The position numbers were made by a program, and so were the translations under genes. From Bolinopsis microptera (taxonomy: Eukaryota > Ctenophora > Tentaculata > Lobata > Bolinopsidae): a stretch of DNA of 64,000 nt. Of this stretch, positions 8,935-64,000 are shown in pieces. Position 1 is the first letter of the stretch. Each line of letters starts with the position of its first letter. Under the pieces are notes generated by a model. The model was not told where the DNA came from and did not search any database. It saw nothing but the letters and a program-made list of their open reading frames with translations. The DNA is taken from assembly GCF_026151205.1 (NCBI RefSeq), contig NC_087080.1:14517337-14581336 (forward strand), written 5' to 3'.

Positions 8935-10315
8935 GAACAGTACCGTTTCCGGTACCGGTCACAGTACCGTTCACAGTACTGGTCACAGTACCGTTCACAG
9001 TACCGTTCACAGTACCGTTCACAGTACCGTTCACAGTACTGGTCACAGTACCGTTCACAGTACCGTTCACAATACTGGTCACAGTACCGTTCACAGTACT
9101 GGTCACAGTACTGTTCACAGTACCGTTCACAGTACCGTCACAGTACCGTTCACAGTACCGTTCACGGTAACGGTCACAGTACCGTTCACAGTACCGGTCA
9201 CAGTACCGTTCACAGTAACGGTCACAGTACCGTTCACAGTACGGTCACAGTACCGTTCACAGTACCGTTCACAGTACCGTTCACAGTACCGTTCACAGTA
9301 CCGTTCACAGTACCGGTCACAGTACCGTTCACAGTACCGTTCACAGTACCGGTCACAGTACCGTTCACAGTACCGGTCACAGTACCGTTCACAGTACCGT
9401 TCACAGTACCGTTCACAGTACCGGTCACAGTACCGTTCACGGTAACGGTCACAGTACCGTTCACAGTACCGGTCACAGTACCGTTCACAGTACCGGTCAC
9501 AGTACCGTTCACAGTACCGGTCACAGTACCGTTCACAGTACTGGTCACAGTACCGTTCACAGTACTGGTCACAGTACCGTTCACAGTACTGGTCACAGTA
9601 CCGTTCACAGTACCGTTCACAGTGCTGGTCACAGTACCGTTCATAGTACCGTTCACAGTACTGGTCACAGTACCGTTCACAGTACCGTTCGCAGTACCGT
9701 TCACAGTACCGTTCGCAGTACCGTTCACAGTACCGTTCACAGTACCGTTCACAGTACTGGTCACAGTATCGTTCACAGTACCGTTCACAGTACCGTTCAC
9801 AGTACCGTTCACAGTACCGTTCACAGTACCGTTCACAGTACCGTTCACAGTATCGTTCACAGTACCGTTCACAGTACTGGTCACAGTACCGTTCACAGTA
9901 CCGTTCACAGTACTGGTCACAGTACCGTTCACAGTACCGTTCACAGTACCGTTCACAATACTGGTCACAGTACCGTTCACAGTACCGTTCACAGTACCGT
10001 TCACAGTACCGTTCACAGTACCGTTCACAGTACTGGTCACAGTACCGTTCACAGTACCGTTCACAGTACTGGTCACAGTACCGTTCACAGTACCGTTCAC
10101 AGTACTGGTCACAGTACCGTTCAGAGTACCGTTCACAGTACCGTTCACAGTACTGGTCACAGTACCGTTCACAGTACCGTTCACAGTACTGGTCACAGTA
10201 CCGTTCACAGTACCGTTCACAGTACCGTTCACAGTACTGGTCACAGTACCGTTCACAGTACCGTTCACAGTACTGGTCACAGTACCGTTCACAGTACCGT
10301 TCACAGTACTGTTAA
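8935..10315. repeat. 1.4-kb minisatellite, 12-bp unit, about 115 copies
   Basis: The unit is CAGTACCGTTCA with a limited set of variants: CAGTACTGGTCA, CAGTACCGGTCA and CAGTAACGGTCA. Variants are zoned: the TGG form dominates both flanks (to about 9130 and after about 9540) and the CGG form the middle (about 9160-9530). Because the period is a multiple of three and lacks stops, both strands stay open over hundreds of codons (FTVP or NGTV peptides). These frames are by-products, not genes. It lies just downstream of the coiled-coil gene at 10418-12936. Confidence 0.95.
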
Positions 10316-10417
10316 CATAGTACAGAGCTCCGTGAGAAGTAAAGGAAGTTAAAATATAAAATAAAAAGCTCCTTCTTTGTTTTATTTGGGCGAGGGCACT
10401 CCACGTAGAAAATCTGT

Positions 10418-56309: not shown

Positions 56310-59300
56310 TCACAGGGTATACTGGGAACTCTCCCTGGAAATGGAGTCTTCTGCATCCTCTTCCTCTCGGAATGTGTAGGGAGTGTTGCTAACTCTCTCT
56401 GAGTCGTACGTGCTTGCCTGGAGGGGAATTTGTATGTTGGCATTTGATAATATTGAAATTGTAGATTAGATGATATGCTTAATATTGCACGGTCTGTTGG
56501 CACAGAAATATGTGATCACCTACTCTCAATTTTCCCACTTAAGTTGTGTAAATTTTATCTACTAATGTAATCTGTATGCACAATCCACTACAGTAAACTG
56601 GATACATTGCATGCCAACAGTTGTAACACGTGTTTCATGCTTGTCAATGTCTCAGAGAGGATTGTTACTGAGTATACAGATGTACTTATTAATTAATGTG
56701 GCAAGCAATGGACGGCAAATAAGAATATCTTATGTAACGGAATAATGAATACCTATGCTTATATTATTAATACAATGATTTCTGTTGAATATTCTGGTGT
56801 GACCCGTGTACTGTCGGTGTACTGGTTTTGAGACTCATGGAATGATCATGTACCTGTGTACGGGGAGGAAGTATTGATAAACTGGGTACATTCTGTTCCA
56901 GAGTGAATGAGCTCTTCATACTTGGGTCAGTGCCCCTGATGTCTTCCAGAAGAGAGGATCTCTGTTGCAAACATTCACTTCTTACTTGATTGTATCTCTT
57001 TTGAATCTGAAATGAAAGTATCGGAGTTAAATTGTATCCGGCAAGTATTGTTTCCCTATTTGGGACAACATTACTAAAGTAAGGAAGCAGCTCTAAGACA
57101 TAGCATATCGTATAGCTAGGAGGGTTTGGAAAACATTACCTGATCCAACAGTCTTCGACCCTGCTTCTTCGTCCTAGTATTTTCACTGGCGATATAGTCG
57201 CCGAGACCGCCTTCTAGAGCGACGTTTTGATTCCTTATCATTCGCAATCCATCATTCAGGGGTTTATCCTTGTCTATTTTCTTGCCCTTTGGAACCAGAC
57301 GTTTTCCCTGACCGAATAAAGTGTTAAGAATTCTCGTTATTTTAAACTTGTTAGGAAAACCATGTGGATTGTTGCCATAGCAACTGAAATTTCAAATTGT
57401 TGAAAAGTTAGACTTTTCTTACTGCGAGAACAAAAATATCCGCGCGTTACAGATCGTCAACGCGCGGCGCATTGCCTCAAAGTCATGTTATACCTTGCAA
57501 GACTTGTAGATATGCTTCCTTGGAAGTACTTCTGAGTTACAAACAGGTTTATAGATGTCGGGTAGGATCATAGTCTTTTGTAGTGCTTTCCTGAGGGAAC
57601 TTACAGCACTCTGAAATAGAAAAAAAGTATCAACAATTATACATAAGTTTGAATTCACGGCAATCGTCAACAATTAGGACACTAAAAATATCATTCTCAA
57701 GTCCAAAACATAGATAAACCTGTATATGTTCTGGGATATAGTCGTTGGGGTCGTCATCAACGTCAACAAGATCTTCGAAACCCTGAGATATGTACGATTC
57801 ACTCCGAGGGTAAAATAAAATTACACGCATCAAACAAAAAGGTGCAAAATAAAATCATACACATGAAACAAAAACATGAACCTCTTCGAATGACACAAAT
57901 TTGTAAATGTGACCTGATATTAGTCTACCTTGTATCTATCAGGAATATGAACAGTGCTGGCGGTATAAGACAGTATATCAGGCTCACTTTCTTCTTCATC
58001 CTCCTCTTCTGCCTCCTGATCGTCCACTTGAGTCAAAAACACGCCCTCGTCAGGAGGCCCTGTTCAGGAGCCTCTTTCTGGGCTTCAGGAAGAGATACAG
58101 AGGGAGAAATGGGAGGCACTGAGGATCCTGAAGTTCATTTAGTTAGAAACATTTTGGGGTGGAACATTCTATGCATTCGTTTAATAGGGCAAGAGCGCTG
58201 AAATTAGATAATTATTAGATTTTGAATGATTAGTGAGTTAAAGGGAAAACCAGCAGTAGTAGGTGGAAGAGCAAGGGAAGGAGCAGACTCCAGGGTTAGC
58301 AACTCTGGGTGGGGCTGTCTGGGCAGAGGTCGAGGGGGTTCCTTGATGCGGCGGGTTCCTGCGCTTACTGTAACAGAGGGAGGCTTCTTCACTTTGGAGG
58401 GTGGGTTTCTGATGATGGTGATCCCGTTGCGGAGGGTGAGTTCGTGGGTGAGAAGAATAGGGAGACCTCGACATTGGGTTATTACTGGGTTATTGTGTAG
58501 GACTAGTTGGCAGAGTTTGGGCCACAGTGCACACGCTAACACTCCCTCTTCTTCTGAGATCTGGAATAGAGTTCTGGGTAAGTTGTAAGTTATCTTTCAA
58601 AGTAAAAGATACATGCTTTGGTTTGTAATGTGAGATCTGAGGATGAATTTTAGCCTTTGCTTAAGTAGCCTTGCACAGCTTTGGTGATGTGTGTTTTTGT
58701 TTTGTGTCGAGCAAATATGCTTCGTTCGCCTCCGTGAGATGTGGCGCTTACCAATTAACAATTAACATAAATACAAATCATAAATTTAGTTACAATTTTT
58801 GAACTTGTCAGCTTTAATGCTAAACGGTAGCCCGAATACTAGCAAAACTTGAAGTTTCTTACCACTTATTATATAATAACTTCATGTCAACCTGGAATAC
58901 TTTGTTAAGACGTTCAAATATAGGGTTATACTATCATAGCCAGCTTTTAAGTATTCAAATTGAATTTTGTTATGTTTAGTTTAATTAAGCTATTTATTTG
59001 TGCTAAATTAAAATTAACATTTATCTAAACTATTTATATTGATCAGTTAGATGTAATTAACTCCAATCGTTGGCGTTATTTCGCTAATATAATATCAGCT
59101 GGAGAAGCTGAACTAATGAGTACGCACCACGTTATCAGATAAGATAAGAGTACTCACCACGTTATCAGATAAGATAAGAGTACTCACCACGTTATCAGAT
59201 AAGATAAGAGTACTCACCACGTTATCAGATAAGATAAGAGTACTCACCACGTTATCAGATAAGATAAGAGTACTCACCACGTTATCAGATAAGATAAGAG

Positions 59301-62300
59301 TACTCACCACGTTATCAGATAAGATAAGAGTACTCACCACGTTATCAGATAAGATAAGAGTACTCACCACGTTATCAGATAAGATAAGAGTACTCACCAC
59401 GTTATCAGATAAGATAAGAGTACTCACCACGTTATCAGATAAGATAAGAGTACTCACCACGTTATCAGATAAGATAAGAGTACTCACCACGTTATCAGAT
59501 AAGATAAGAGTCTGCAGCTGAGGGAACGGTTGCTGAAGCGGCATGGGCGCAGTCTGGTACATTGTCTCTGCTGTTGACTTACCCTCGCTAATCTGGGGGA
59601 GCTGGTAATGTGAACGTTAGTACTGTGTAAAGGAGTTAGTACTGTGTAAAGGAGTTAGTACTGTGTAAAGGATTTTTAGGGCCGAGGGAAGATTCTGACT
59701 GTAAGGTTCCGGGCGGACTGCTGAGCTTTTTGTGGCTACGTTTATAAAGTTATAACGAGAGGCTCTTCGTGGATTATAATTATATAATGACAGACAGATA
59801 TATGCACAAAAGGTTGATGATATAATGATATACTTATTTCAAACAAGTGGAACACTTGATTATTTTAATATAACGAAGAATTAGGTCTAGAAGCTCATGA
59901 CAATTATTTTATTTATATAACCTTAATTTAAAACAAAAAGTTAATTAACAGACCAGATAGGCGTCGACATTGAGTTTGTTTTTTCTGATGGCATCAGGAC
60001 TATCGGACTTGTTCATGTCCCGTTCCATCATTCCACTCTTAACACTTCCTCCCGGAAATGCGCTGAATATTTAATTAGATCTTATTATTATTCGACATGA
60101 ATTGTTTTTGAACGAATATTTTGTGGTTGTGTTGATTTATTAATACAGCTGGTTGGTCCCGAAATGTTACGGAAGCCTGAGCATCAATATATGATCGAAC
60201 TCTGAATATCATAGTATCGGTTAATAATGGCCAACTCTCTGTAACTAAATATTCAATTATAAAATATTCAACAAAGATGTTTCCCCACCTGCTACTCCCC
60301 ACATGAACTATTTGTTCTCGACTCAGGGAGGCCGGGGAGTCTCCCCTGGACACCCCTGTCTCAATGTCCTCCTCTTCTGGACGTGAGATTGGTTTCTTAT
60401 CTCGGATTGTTGGGGTTTCGTCCTCAAGATCTGGGGTACTGATCTCTGATTCGGGGGTATCGTCTTCCAGCACATCAGGCGAGTCCTCCTGCAGAAAGAA
60501 ATAATTATAATAATAATTTAAAAGTTTAAACTGGCTTTAAATTTTATTGTCTCTTTTAATAGTTTTGATAATTTGTTTTCTTTTTCAAGAAACTTGGGAT
60601 AACGGTAAAATACTTATAATCGCACTTTTTTCGGCCAAGTTTTCAAATCAACAATTTTACTTACACTATTGTCGTCTTTTCCAGGTAAAACATCGATCAG
60701 CTTTTTGGGTGTCTTGGTTTGGATTGGAGTTATTTTGCTTTTCGTCAAACCAAACTCCGAGTTTGAAATTTCTTGCTTCATTTTCTGACGGGGTTACTAC
60801 ATCATCAAAAGATCAACTAATAGAAACAAAGGGCGTTTCAAAAGTCTTGAACAATTTATTTACTGAATAAATTTGTATCCATTTGTCCAAACTTGATTGT
60901 GTTATTAATTGGTATTTTTAAGGTTTAATGGCAACTTCTAAATTTTATTTAAGTATTACGATATGCAAATATCACCTGTTAATTAATCACCTGTTGATTA
61001 ATCACCTGTTAATTAATCACCTGTTAATTAATCACCTGTTAATTAATCACCTGTTGATTAATCACCTATTAATTAATCACCTGTTAATTAATCACCTGTT
61101 AATTAATTACCTGTTAATTAATCACCTGTTAATTAATCACCTGAGAGTTAGCGGAGGATCTCTGAGACTTGGTCCGAGTAGACTTTGCGGACTTGTTCTG
61201 TGCTTTAAAGTCCTCGACATGAGCTATTGCAGAACCCAACACCCGTAAATGAGGTATGTAGTAGATGTGATTCTTAGCAAGGTTCAAGTACTTCAACCTT
61301 AAAACGTGTATTTTAGGGCTCATGTCTCATTGATAAAGTGATAAGTATTTAATTGTACTACCAACCAATCTCTAGTATTTCTCATCATGTTTTCAGAGTT
61401 AAACTGATGTGATTCAATATTAATTCGTTCGGGATCTTAATGATACCCACTCGTCAATTTCAAGCTGAAGGTCGAAGAAATAAAGATAAAATGTCCAGGC
61501 TTACTTTTTGAGAGCCCCCAGAGTGGCGAAGGTAGAGAGGTCACAGAGATGATTGTTGTCTAAATACAATTCCTCCAGGTTGGCAAACCTCTGGTAAATC
61601 TGCTTCTCATTATCAACTGAAATAGAGGGAGAGGTTAATTTAGAGTTAAGGGGGGCTCACTATGATTTGTTTTCGAGATAGCACTTCGTGGACAATTTCG
61701 AGATTTTGAGATATGTTGTAGAGCTCAATCTAAATATTCGAATGCTTTTGTCCCCACCGAAAAAAAAGTTTCCCATCTGTAGATATCGCGCGTCAAATTT
61801 TGAGGTTTACCTATTGTAAACCTATTGTAAATGAAAACTTCAACTGCAATTTTGTTTAAAATCTATCTTCTTTTACAGTTTACGACATGGGATCTTGGCA
61901 ACAGTGTTTGTCAAGGTCTTTTCCAATAGTATAATGTGCCGATTTTTGATTTTTTGTGGGGTGGTGTGCGAGCGTCAGGTAGTACGTGGTCTGCCAACTG
62001 GCAAAAAATATTTTTTCGACCTCGGACCCCCCCCCCCCCCTGTGACCTTAACTGTGTGTTAACAGTGCGTTATGTGTCCGTCTACGTATAACCGAATTGC
62101 CCTAACTTAGCTAGGCTGTTATTGGAAAATATTGAGTGTCTTCTATTATTTACTCTTACCTAAAACATTCTCTCATTCGCAACAAATACTTTAGCACATA
62201 CCAAAGTTCCCAACCTTTGTAGTTGTACAACTCAAAGCATATTATAGACATCATTGCGAATTAACTCATCCAAGGAAACTATGAAAGCTGACAATCAACT

Positions 62301-64000
62301 GTAATGTCTTCCGAGTGTCAAATGTCTAGAGCTGTGAGCACTGATCAGACTGAGTCTGATACATTGTTCTTTTTGTTCTAAAACACAAAGATACAAATTT
62401 AATACTCGACTTAGTGACTCGGCTGATAATGAAGCAGTTGAGGTTGCTTGTGTTTGTCGTACGCTCTTTTCAGAATGGCCACTGTCAAGAACAAATGGGA
62501 CGACAAAACTTACAATCAGCCCAAATATAAATATAGGGTCTTCAATTTAATTATAACTCTAAAATTAAAATTAAATCAAAGTCTATAACAGAACATTAAA
62601 TACCTGCTGGGTATGCCATGTTTGACGGTAGAGTTTTAATCTCGTTAGCTGTTAATACCAGAACTCTCAGTCTCTCAATGAGCCCTATGTTCAGTATTCC
62701 ACTATGTGATATCTGAAGAGTTTAGTGAGGTTACTACCATTCAGACGTTTTGGTTATATTCACAAAACTGAATTGCACTGCTCACAAAAGTTGAGAGGAC
62801 ATTAGAGTTACAAGAGTTACAATAGTTACAAGAGTTACAAGAGTTACAAGAGTTACACATTAATAAGATTTAGTATTTATTGTAAACTCTCCCCCAATAA
62901 CCTGATTGTAAGACAGATCCAAAGTGTCGAGATGTAGGAAGTGGTTCGGTGACAGTTTAACTTTACTCAAACTGTTAAACTGGAACTGAATCTCCCGAAC
63001 CATGGGAAACGAGGAGAGACACTGAAAATAATGTTATTATCAGTAGTAATTTAGTAGAAGTTATCATAATATTTTTTTTTTTTTAATAAAAAAAAATCAT
63101 AATATTTCAATACGTACTATCATGACACTATTTGCCATCAATCAATTCGACGGTTCTGAAAAGATGACAAATGATAACCGGAAAATAAAAACTAAAAAGT
63201 CAGATCTTAATTGATTATTATTGTGAGTTATACCTCCAACTTCAAATTGTTTTCGGCTGCGTTGATGTGGAACAAGTTGATGAATAAGTCAAAATCATCT
63301 TCCTTAGCCGCATTCAAACCTGTAAGAAGAATGTTCAATGTTTTATAGGACTAGAAGTATTATATTTTTGTTCTTAAATTGCTTAGAATTGTATGCAGTG
63401 AAGCATGATATACAAGAAGTGAAACAGCGATGCAATATCAGATTCGGTAAACAACTAAAACCAATGAAGGTGCCAAGCTTGATTGTTACTTCCACAATAT
63501 CTGAGCTTCTAGACTCTTCCAAATCCATCGCTCATAATAATCAAACCGAACAGTACCTTGGTTGGAGATATCTATACTACAGATATCTTGTGGGTCGTCT
63601 AACTTAGCACAGTTCAGTAGGTAGTACCCGTCCAATATCTTCTCCCCTAACTGTTTCTCAGCCTCCTGTGACTCCTTGCATTATTTTATCAGTTCCCCGA
63701 TTAATAACAATAGTTTTGGTATTATTAAACACGGACGAGACATCAACAGAAACGTTCATATTCCGTAAAACTCGGAACAGTTTCAGTCCCTAAACATAAT
63801 AATTTCTCCGTGATGCACGAACAAGGTATTACCAACCTGTTGCCTATGCTGGATGTAGTCCTGGTCGTAGAGGAGGAAGCTGTGATACCTCCGGTGTTGG
63901 GCTTCCTGGTGCTCTACCAGCCATGCTCCACCTGGGATAGAGAGTTTCAACTAAACTATATGTTCTCTCTCAGTTACCTTCTTGACTACAGAGGTTATTT
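56310..64000 (-). CDS. XRRA1: XRRA1-like leucine-rich-repeat protein, 3' complete, 5' off the window
   Basis: Eighteen exons: 64000(partial)-63978, 63931-63837, 63674-63557, 63319-63234, 63021-62902, 62712-62604, 61616-61505, 61297-61141, 60488-60289, 60062-59954, 59601-59488, 58560-58251, 58059-57929, 57782-57720, 57610-57494, 57307-57140, 57006-56854, 56417-56310. Every phase closes, giving at least 763 aa against about 790 in vertebrates. N-terminal parts: EGGAWLVEHQ, GEKILDGYYLLNC, ISNQGLNAAKEDDFDLFINL and INAAENNLKLE. Then leucine-rich repeats (LDTLDLSYNQ, LRVLVLTANEI, LEELYLDNNHL, LKYLNLAKN), an acidic linker, a last repeat pair (LQTLILSDNV, LCQLVLHNNP), and a conserved tail (IPDRYKGFEDL, then basic QKRYNQVR). 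XRRA1 was named for X-ray response; its molecular role is unclear. The exon at 60062-59954 has a weak donor. Two exon ends carry tandem donor arrays. Confidence 0.82.
59121..59510 (-). repeat. 30-bp x 13 array starting at a 5' splice site of the XRRA1-like gene
   Basis: Each unit, read on the minus strand, is ACTCTTATCTTATCTGATAA then CGTGGTGAGT, that is the last codons of exon 59601-59488 plus the donor GTG|GTGAGT. Units start every 30 bases from 59121 to 59481; only the one furthest downstream differs (GTGCGT). The frame stays open through the array as TLILSDNVVS repeats, so any of the 13 donors joins in frame to the next exon (58560). Confidence 0.95.
60971..61140 (-). repeat. 15-bp x 11 array starting at another donor of the same gene
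   Basis: On the minus strand the exon ends TCTCAG and the intron opens GTGATTAATTAA; the unit CAGGTGATTAATTAA (allowing a few substitutions) is then repeated about 11 times. Every unit carries a CAG|GTGAT donor, but the first intronic TAA is in frame, so only the outermost donor gives a normal protein. Confidence 0.92.
62805..62860. repeat. GAGTTACAA microsatellite in an intron
   Basis: About six copies of a 9-base unit (GAGTTACAA) lie in the intron between exons 63021-62902 and 62712-62604, not at a splice site. Confidence 0.8.

Follow-up and report, generated by a model that had tools for sequence, protein, structure and literature searches.

A minisatellite spanning a 5' splice site in a leucine-rich repeat gene of the ctenophore Bolinopsis microptera, and arrays of the same kind elsewhere in its genome

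Results

The leucine-rich repeat gene and its donor array

The stretch of DNA analysed here (the window) comprises 64,000 nucleotides of the ctenophore Bolinopsis microptera (RefSeq assembly GCF_026151205.1, contig NC_087080.1, positions 14,517,337 to 14,581,336) and harbours, on its minus strand, a leucine-rich repeat (LRR) gene in which a minisatellite of 13 units overlies one exon/intron boundary, each unit carrying a 5' splice site (donor). Ten exons of this gene, with fitting phases, were traced from 63665 to 58560 and beyond (58342-63665 as recognised by joined translation and Pfam profiles; first and last exons may be missing). They are located at 63665-63557, 63319-63234, 63021-62902, 62712-62604 and 61616-61505 (E1 to E5), at 61297-61141, 60784-60665, 60488-60289 and 59587-59488 (E6 to E9), and from 58560 onwards (E10). 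A profile search with the joined translation gave LRR_4 (1.6e-10), LRR_9 (1.2e-8) and LRR_8 (7.4e-8), all above the cut-off; single exons yielded one Pfam match only, to DUF3719 and below the cut-off. The 24 PDB matches listed for the gene are other LRR proteins, and a PDB search with E10 alone returned no match. Proteins of the XRRA1 type possess N-terminal LRRs, a linker and then one LRR pair ending in an HNNP-like motif. The gene resembles them in each of these parts, and from its layout we regard it as putatively XRRA1-like; the array, by contrast, is not a feature of that family.

The minisatellite occupies 59118-59511 on the minus strand, where Tandem Repeats Finder (TRF) reported a 30-bp unit in 13.1 copies with 99% matches and a score of 781. 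The unit is made up of the final 24 nt of exon E9 followed by the six-base donor GTGAGT. A search of the 264.65-Mb genome with up to three mismatches found the 30-mer 13 times, always inside this array (12 exact copies and one with a single mismatch), while the reversed 30-mer had no match under the same conditions. Such an array is not due to chance. That a dispersed satellite had been inserted by chance at the exon end was ruled out, as the 30-mer occurs nowhere else in the genome; the exon ahead of the array likewise has one match only in the assembly. The donors follow each other at exactly 30 bp: donor 1, the outermost GTGAGT and the predicted main donor (59482-59487; by donor positions and LRR spacing), is followed by the identical donors 2 to 12 (59152-59457, first bases at 59457 ... 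59157), each adding ten in-frame residues, and by donor 13 (59122-59127), a GTGCGT that is weakened by an A to C change at +4. All 13 units are open in the frame of the exon, and an in-frame TAG stands right behind them (59113-59115), where unspliced or retained transcripts would end. Use of any inner donor (12/12) would leave an in-frame, stop-free insert made of multiples of VSTLILSDNV. A first-pass annotation had proposed just this, namely 13 in-frame copies of an exact, stop-free 30-base unit in which donor n adds n-1 copies of VSTLILSDNV, and TRF, genome search and donor positions bear it out, as does the near-identity of the units for its suggestion that the array is young or homogenised, which this similarity does indicate. 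One correction concerns the thirteenth donor, which is weaker than the twelve GTGAGT copies. ACTC occurs at each end of the array, once in the exon (59511) and once in the intron (59121).

The same annotation placed the start of E9 at 59601. This is one of three AG choices (59601, 59592 and 59587), all of them open; the best upstream donor, CAG|GTGGGG at the end of E8 (60289), leaves phase 2 and leads in phase to 59587, while 59592 and 59601 need another upstream donor. Exon E9 (59488-59587, minus strand) ends in LQTLILSDNV and is joined in phase 0 to E10, whose first part (58342-58560, minus strand; ISEEEGVLACALW...) lies behind the acceptor TTCCAG|ATC, 58342 marking only how far the sequence was read. 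The acceptor side of E9 is also repeated: TRF found a 19-bp unit in three copies (TCCTTTACACAGTACTAAC; 59616-59672, minus strand), which multiplies an acceptor-like CAG and a TACTAAC resembling the branch site, of which TACTAAC is the consensus.

A second donor array is present in the same gene. From the end of E6 (61141), 12 donors follow in an array of a 15-bp unit (GTGATTAATTAACAG; 60971-61143, minus strand; TRF and donor positions) that contains an in-frame TAA, and all 11 inner donors leave a stop in the insert. Donor arrays of this gene thus need not be coding.

The spacing of the LRRs suggests which of the 13 donors is used. Joining E9 to E10 via donor 1 results in a spacing of 25 for the motif LxxLxLxxN, the other clear spacings in the gene being 24, 35 and 25 (a loosened motif adds 10 and 13, from two weak matches at the start). 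With 25 as the typical value, normal splicing probably goes through donor 1. Adding one unit would give 35, which has one parallel in the gene; adding two or three would give 45 and 55, which have none. The E9/E10 intron lies one residue past the LRR asparagine, as does the E3/E4 intron. The ten-residue unit does contain the motif LxLSxN. A whole LRR, though, takes 20-30 residues per repeat, so the added units, called LRR-like in the first-pass annotation, are too short to be whole LRRs.

The open frame of the unit says little about coding because it is expected: 24 of its 30 bases are copied coding exon. All that is left to chance is the period, which falls on a multiple of three in one case out of three, and the two codons GTG AGT. 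A selected reading frame was therefore rejected as evidence, both on this ground and in view of the periods of the 18 arrays described below.

Donor arrays elsewhere in the genome

Donor words occurring three in a run (triples) were counted genome-wide, with the same words reversed as control. CAGGTRAGT triples numbered 682 against 7, AAGGTRAGT triples 569 against 28 and GTGGTGAGT triples 205 against 64; among the triples of AGGTRAGT (2112 against 206) and GTRAGT (26,416 against 10,438) are dispersed families or simple repeats. Taken singly, CAGGTRAGT is already enriched (4373 against 2576). Because of this, and because matches pile up within arrays, we claim no hot spot of array birth at donors; per locus the excess of CAGGTRAGT triples is probably only few-fold (15 loci among the first 100 matches). 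A 28-bp word at C1:1998053 recurs at C2:19851449. A dispersed 32-bp family with AGGTAAGT in its unit was observed at L002 (C1:36000-39200, 37 copies) and L004 (C1:760900-763600, 26 copies), with similar flanks and no recognisable exon alongside.

Among the matches listed, 38 further loci were chosen for clustered donor words and fetched: all 7 listed for AGGTRAGT, all 15 listed for CAGGTRAGT, 3 for GTRAGT, 6 for AAGGTRAGT and 7 for GTGGTGAGT. The picks for the last three words were selective, some loci (simple repeats among them) being skipped, and the GTGGTGAGT loci were picked for the donor of the E9 array, which biases them towards open phase-0 joins. Visual inspection, together with open frames and acceptors, assigned 17 of the 38 to arrays growing from a coding exon end, 16 of them independent (L023 and L024 are paralogues). 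In the other 21 (L002, L004-L007, L009, L010, L013-L016, L020-L022, L025, L058-L061, L065 and L066) a position at an exon end was judged lacking or doubtful; among these, L061 (30-bp unit) and L065 (33-bp unit) show no recognisable exon end.

Pfam profiles matched six of 15 scanned array exons (L012 and L024 were outside the scan) at E<=0.03; of these matches only LMF1_C (1.7e-28) and Ldl_recept_a (3e-7) lie above the cut-off, while MABP1/WDR62 WD40 (7.5e-5), TIG (0.0033), MFS_1 (0.006) and Sushi (0.024) lie below it. A codon model reached p<=0.1 at 14 of the 38 array starts where 3.8 were expected (8 of 25 against 2.5 and 6 of 13 against 1.3), two of the 14 being doubtful: L003, where the model was run on an inner copy, and L025, which had not been judged an exon. 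The first donor was misplaced for this model in L003 and L024 (inner copy), L016 (outside the array) and L057 (an exonic GTGAGT one unit early). Its power on 63 nt is low; the nine exon ends of the LRR gene itself gave p=0.01-0.25.

When the E9 and E6 arrays are added, the 16 further loci make 18 independent arrays, with periods of 30, 15, 34, 29, 65, 25, 20, 41, 29, 34, 32, 44, 38, 23, 33, 42, 43 and 19 bp. These leave a remainder of 0, 1 and 2 on division by three in 4, 5 and 9 cases. As only four are multiples of three, and one of the four carries a stop, the arrays seem to grow regardless of frame. Counting inner donors inside the fetched stretch, all are in-frame and open in three arrays: the E9 array (12/12), L062 (4/4) and L063 (6/6). 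The first of the two additional loci (C10:6042800-6044100) has a 33-bp period on an MFS-like exon with the unit VSHVPDHAPYV, the second (C11:6483000-6484300) a 42-bp period on a TIG-like exon with the unit VSLGFTASHSCDIV, and both share the phase-0 join GTG|GTGAGT. Three of 33 inner donors of L003 are in-frame and open (7 change the frame yet remain stop-free, and 23 run into a stop), as is one of nine in L012, and in the remaining 13 of the 18 arrays every counted inner donor meets a stop. Because inner donors mostly bring stops or frameshifts, most genes with such arrays must, if functional, rely on their outermost donor.

At L011/L027 (C1:1286900-1292300) one LMF1-like exon is flanked by two arrays, a 14-bp unit in 40 copies up to the acceptor and a 65-bp unit in about 30 copies across the donor; L011 was chosen for the 14-bp array, which proved to lie on the other strand, and the 65-bp donor array of the LMF1-like gene was found next to it. 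An array in a WD40 gene is found at L019. L023 and L024 (C9:1817200 and 1884200) are very similar, 67 kb apart, and possess the same 34-bp donor-spanning array on a Cys-rich exon, apparently owing to a duplication that carried the array along.

The window contains another array, a 12-bp unit (ACAGTACCGTTC) in about 115 copies at 8937-10317. In total, TRF arrays of period >=6 cover 4461 of its 64,000 bases, compared to 3% in 25 kinase loci. In another ctenophore, Hormiphora, TRF classes 13% of the genome as repeats (PMC8527503).

Discussion

We consider it likely that the array is a minisatellite that arose over the donor of E9, of which donor 1 would be used in most transcripts, with leaky use of the inner donors tolerated rather than selected. 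On this reading, 30 bp were duplicated across the exon/intron boundary of the LRR gene and expanded to a minisatellite in which every copy carries the 24 nt of the exon end plus a donor; the probable seed would be a direct repeat of ACTC, 30 bp apart in the ancestor, setting both unit and frame. Splicing at donor 1 would give the normal protein and remove the remaining copies as intron, whereas donor 2, donor 3 and so forth would add 10, 20 or more residues. As the unit keeps phase 0, lacks a stop and has a length divisible by three, the gene would tolerate leaky use of inner donors as well as altered copy number. The predominance of donor 1 is suggested by the LRR spacing and by the other genomic arrays: provided that the genes carrying them function, their first donor has to prevail against as many as about 40 near-identical units downstream.

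An exon end supplied with several donors by a tandem array has a precedent in humans. A minisatellite providing multiple splice donors was reportedly described in the gene IFI6 (6-16, G1P3) by Turri, Cuin and Porter in 1995 (Nucleic Acids Research 23:1854). This is the closest precedent to the E9 array, which shares with it a tandem array over the end of a coding exon and the adjoining intron, a donor consensus in each unit, and an open unit whose length is a multiple of three. In IFI6 three species of mRNA arise because two of the downstream units can be spliced as donors (PMC4526556). By analogy, low-level isoforms of the LRR protein with 10 or 20 additional residues appear plausible. The two systems differ in gene and sequence, which are unrelated, in the length of the unit (30 bp here, 12 nt in IFI6), and in the presence of two arrays in one gene and of others in the genome. 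Gain of introns, or shifts of their boundaries, by tandem duplication (e.g. PMC4974935, PMC2891723) likewise involves duplication near splice signals; here, by contrast, the donor side alone has been copied, many times over, and no new intron results. A literature search on minisatellites, introns and ctenophores found no paper, no title or beginning of an abstract that it returned described donor-spanning arrays as a genome-wide feature, and among the records listed on donor competition none dealt with identical arrays; absence is not established by any of these searches.

Several points weaken the case for predominant use of donor 1. Donors 1 to 12 do not differ in sequence, and in vitro the intron-proximal one of several identical competitors is often preferred, which speaks for the inner donors. 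The gene already holds one LRR spacing of 35, equal to that produced by one added unit. Outside the Pfam cases, most exon calls depend on an open frame, an AG and visual inspection; a search in L027 and L028 for the following exon of the LMF1-like and the WD40 gene was negative. Finally, all 18 arrays have an intact first donor, compared to 198 of 235 inner donors (product of the per-array inner rates 0.07); this fits use of donor 1 but carries little weight, as arrays were picked for intact donors.

An alternative view is that the array acts as a switch which tunes protein length, the inner donors being used substantially, possibly under regulation, so that a ladder of 0-12 extra ten-residue units exists and shifts with copy number. 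The open frame behind all 12 inner donors, the precedent of IFI6, the two further in-frame arrays with the same GTG|GTGAGT join (in the MFS-like and TIG-like exons) and the native spacing of 35 are all consistent with this. It is nevertheless an unlikely account: openness is expected of copied exon sequence, ten residues make no LRR, two or more units would produce spacings that the gene does not contain, the arrays show no excess of periods divisible by three, and the E6 array in the very same gene forbids the use of its inner donors. On these grounds, tuning of an LRR segment by splicing, as the first-pass annotation proposed, is unsupported. Rather doubtful, too, is the broader notion that minisatellites expand over the exon ends of many genes in this genome and that the in-frame arrays of the LRR, MFS-like and TIG-like genes, combined with imperfect donor choice and unstable copy number, would create a heritable, graded ladder of protein lengths.

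The near-identity of the units and the reliance on a single assembly could point to an artefact, i.e. a wrong copy number or an array created by mis-assembly. This we regard as improbable: a genome of 264.65 Mb resolved into 232 contigs, of which the one containing the window measures 17.4 Mb, probably indicates a long-read assembly, for which 394 bp are short, and many different arrays of like kind are present. Least credible is an intron-proximal rule, under which the innermost strong donor (59157) would be the main one and the protein would normally carry 110 repeat residues, for the in vitro preference that favours it is met by a disrupted LRR spacing in this gene and by stops in the genes bearing LMF1, WD40 and LDLa domains.

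Conclusions

The array at the end of exon E9 is a real donor-spanning minisatellite and a further case of the kind known from IFI6; tuning of protein length is unproven and not the best reading of it. More interesting than this array itself is the recurrence of such arrays across the genome of B. microptera. They may mislead gene predictors, and slippage of the repeats can alter protein length. Donor arrays of up to about 40 nearly identical units at one exon end, in several genes, amount to a natural experiment on the choice among equal 5' splice sites, for which transcription order, exon definition and distance are candidate rules; and as array length, unit length and frame differ between genes, these arrays would be useful for finding the rule that applies.

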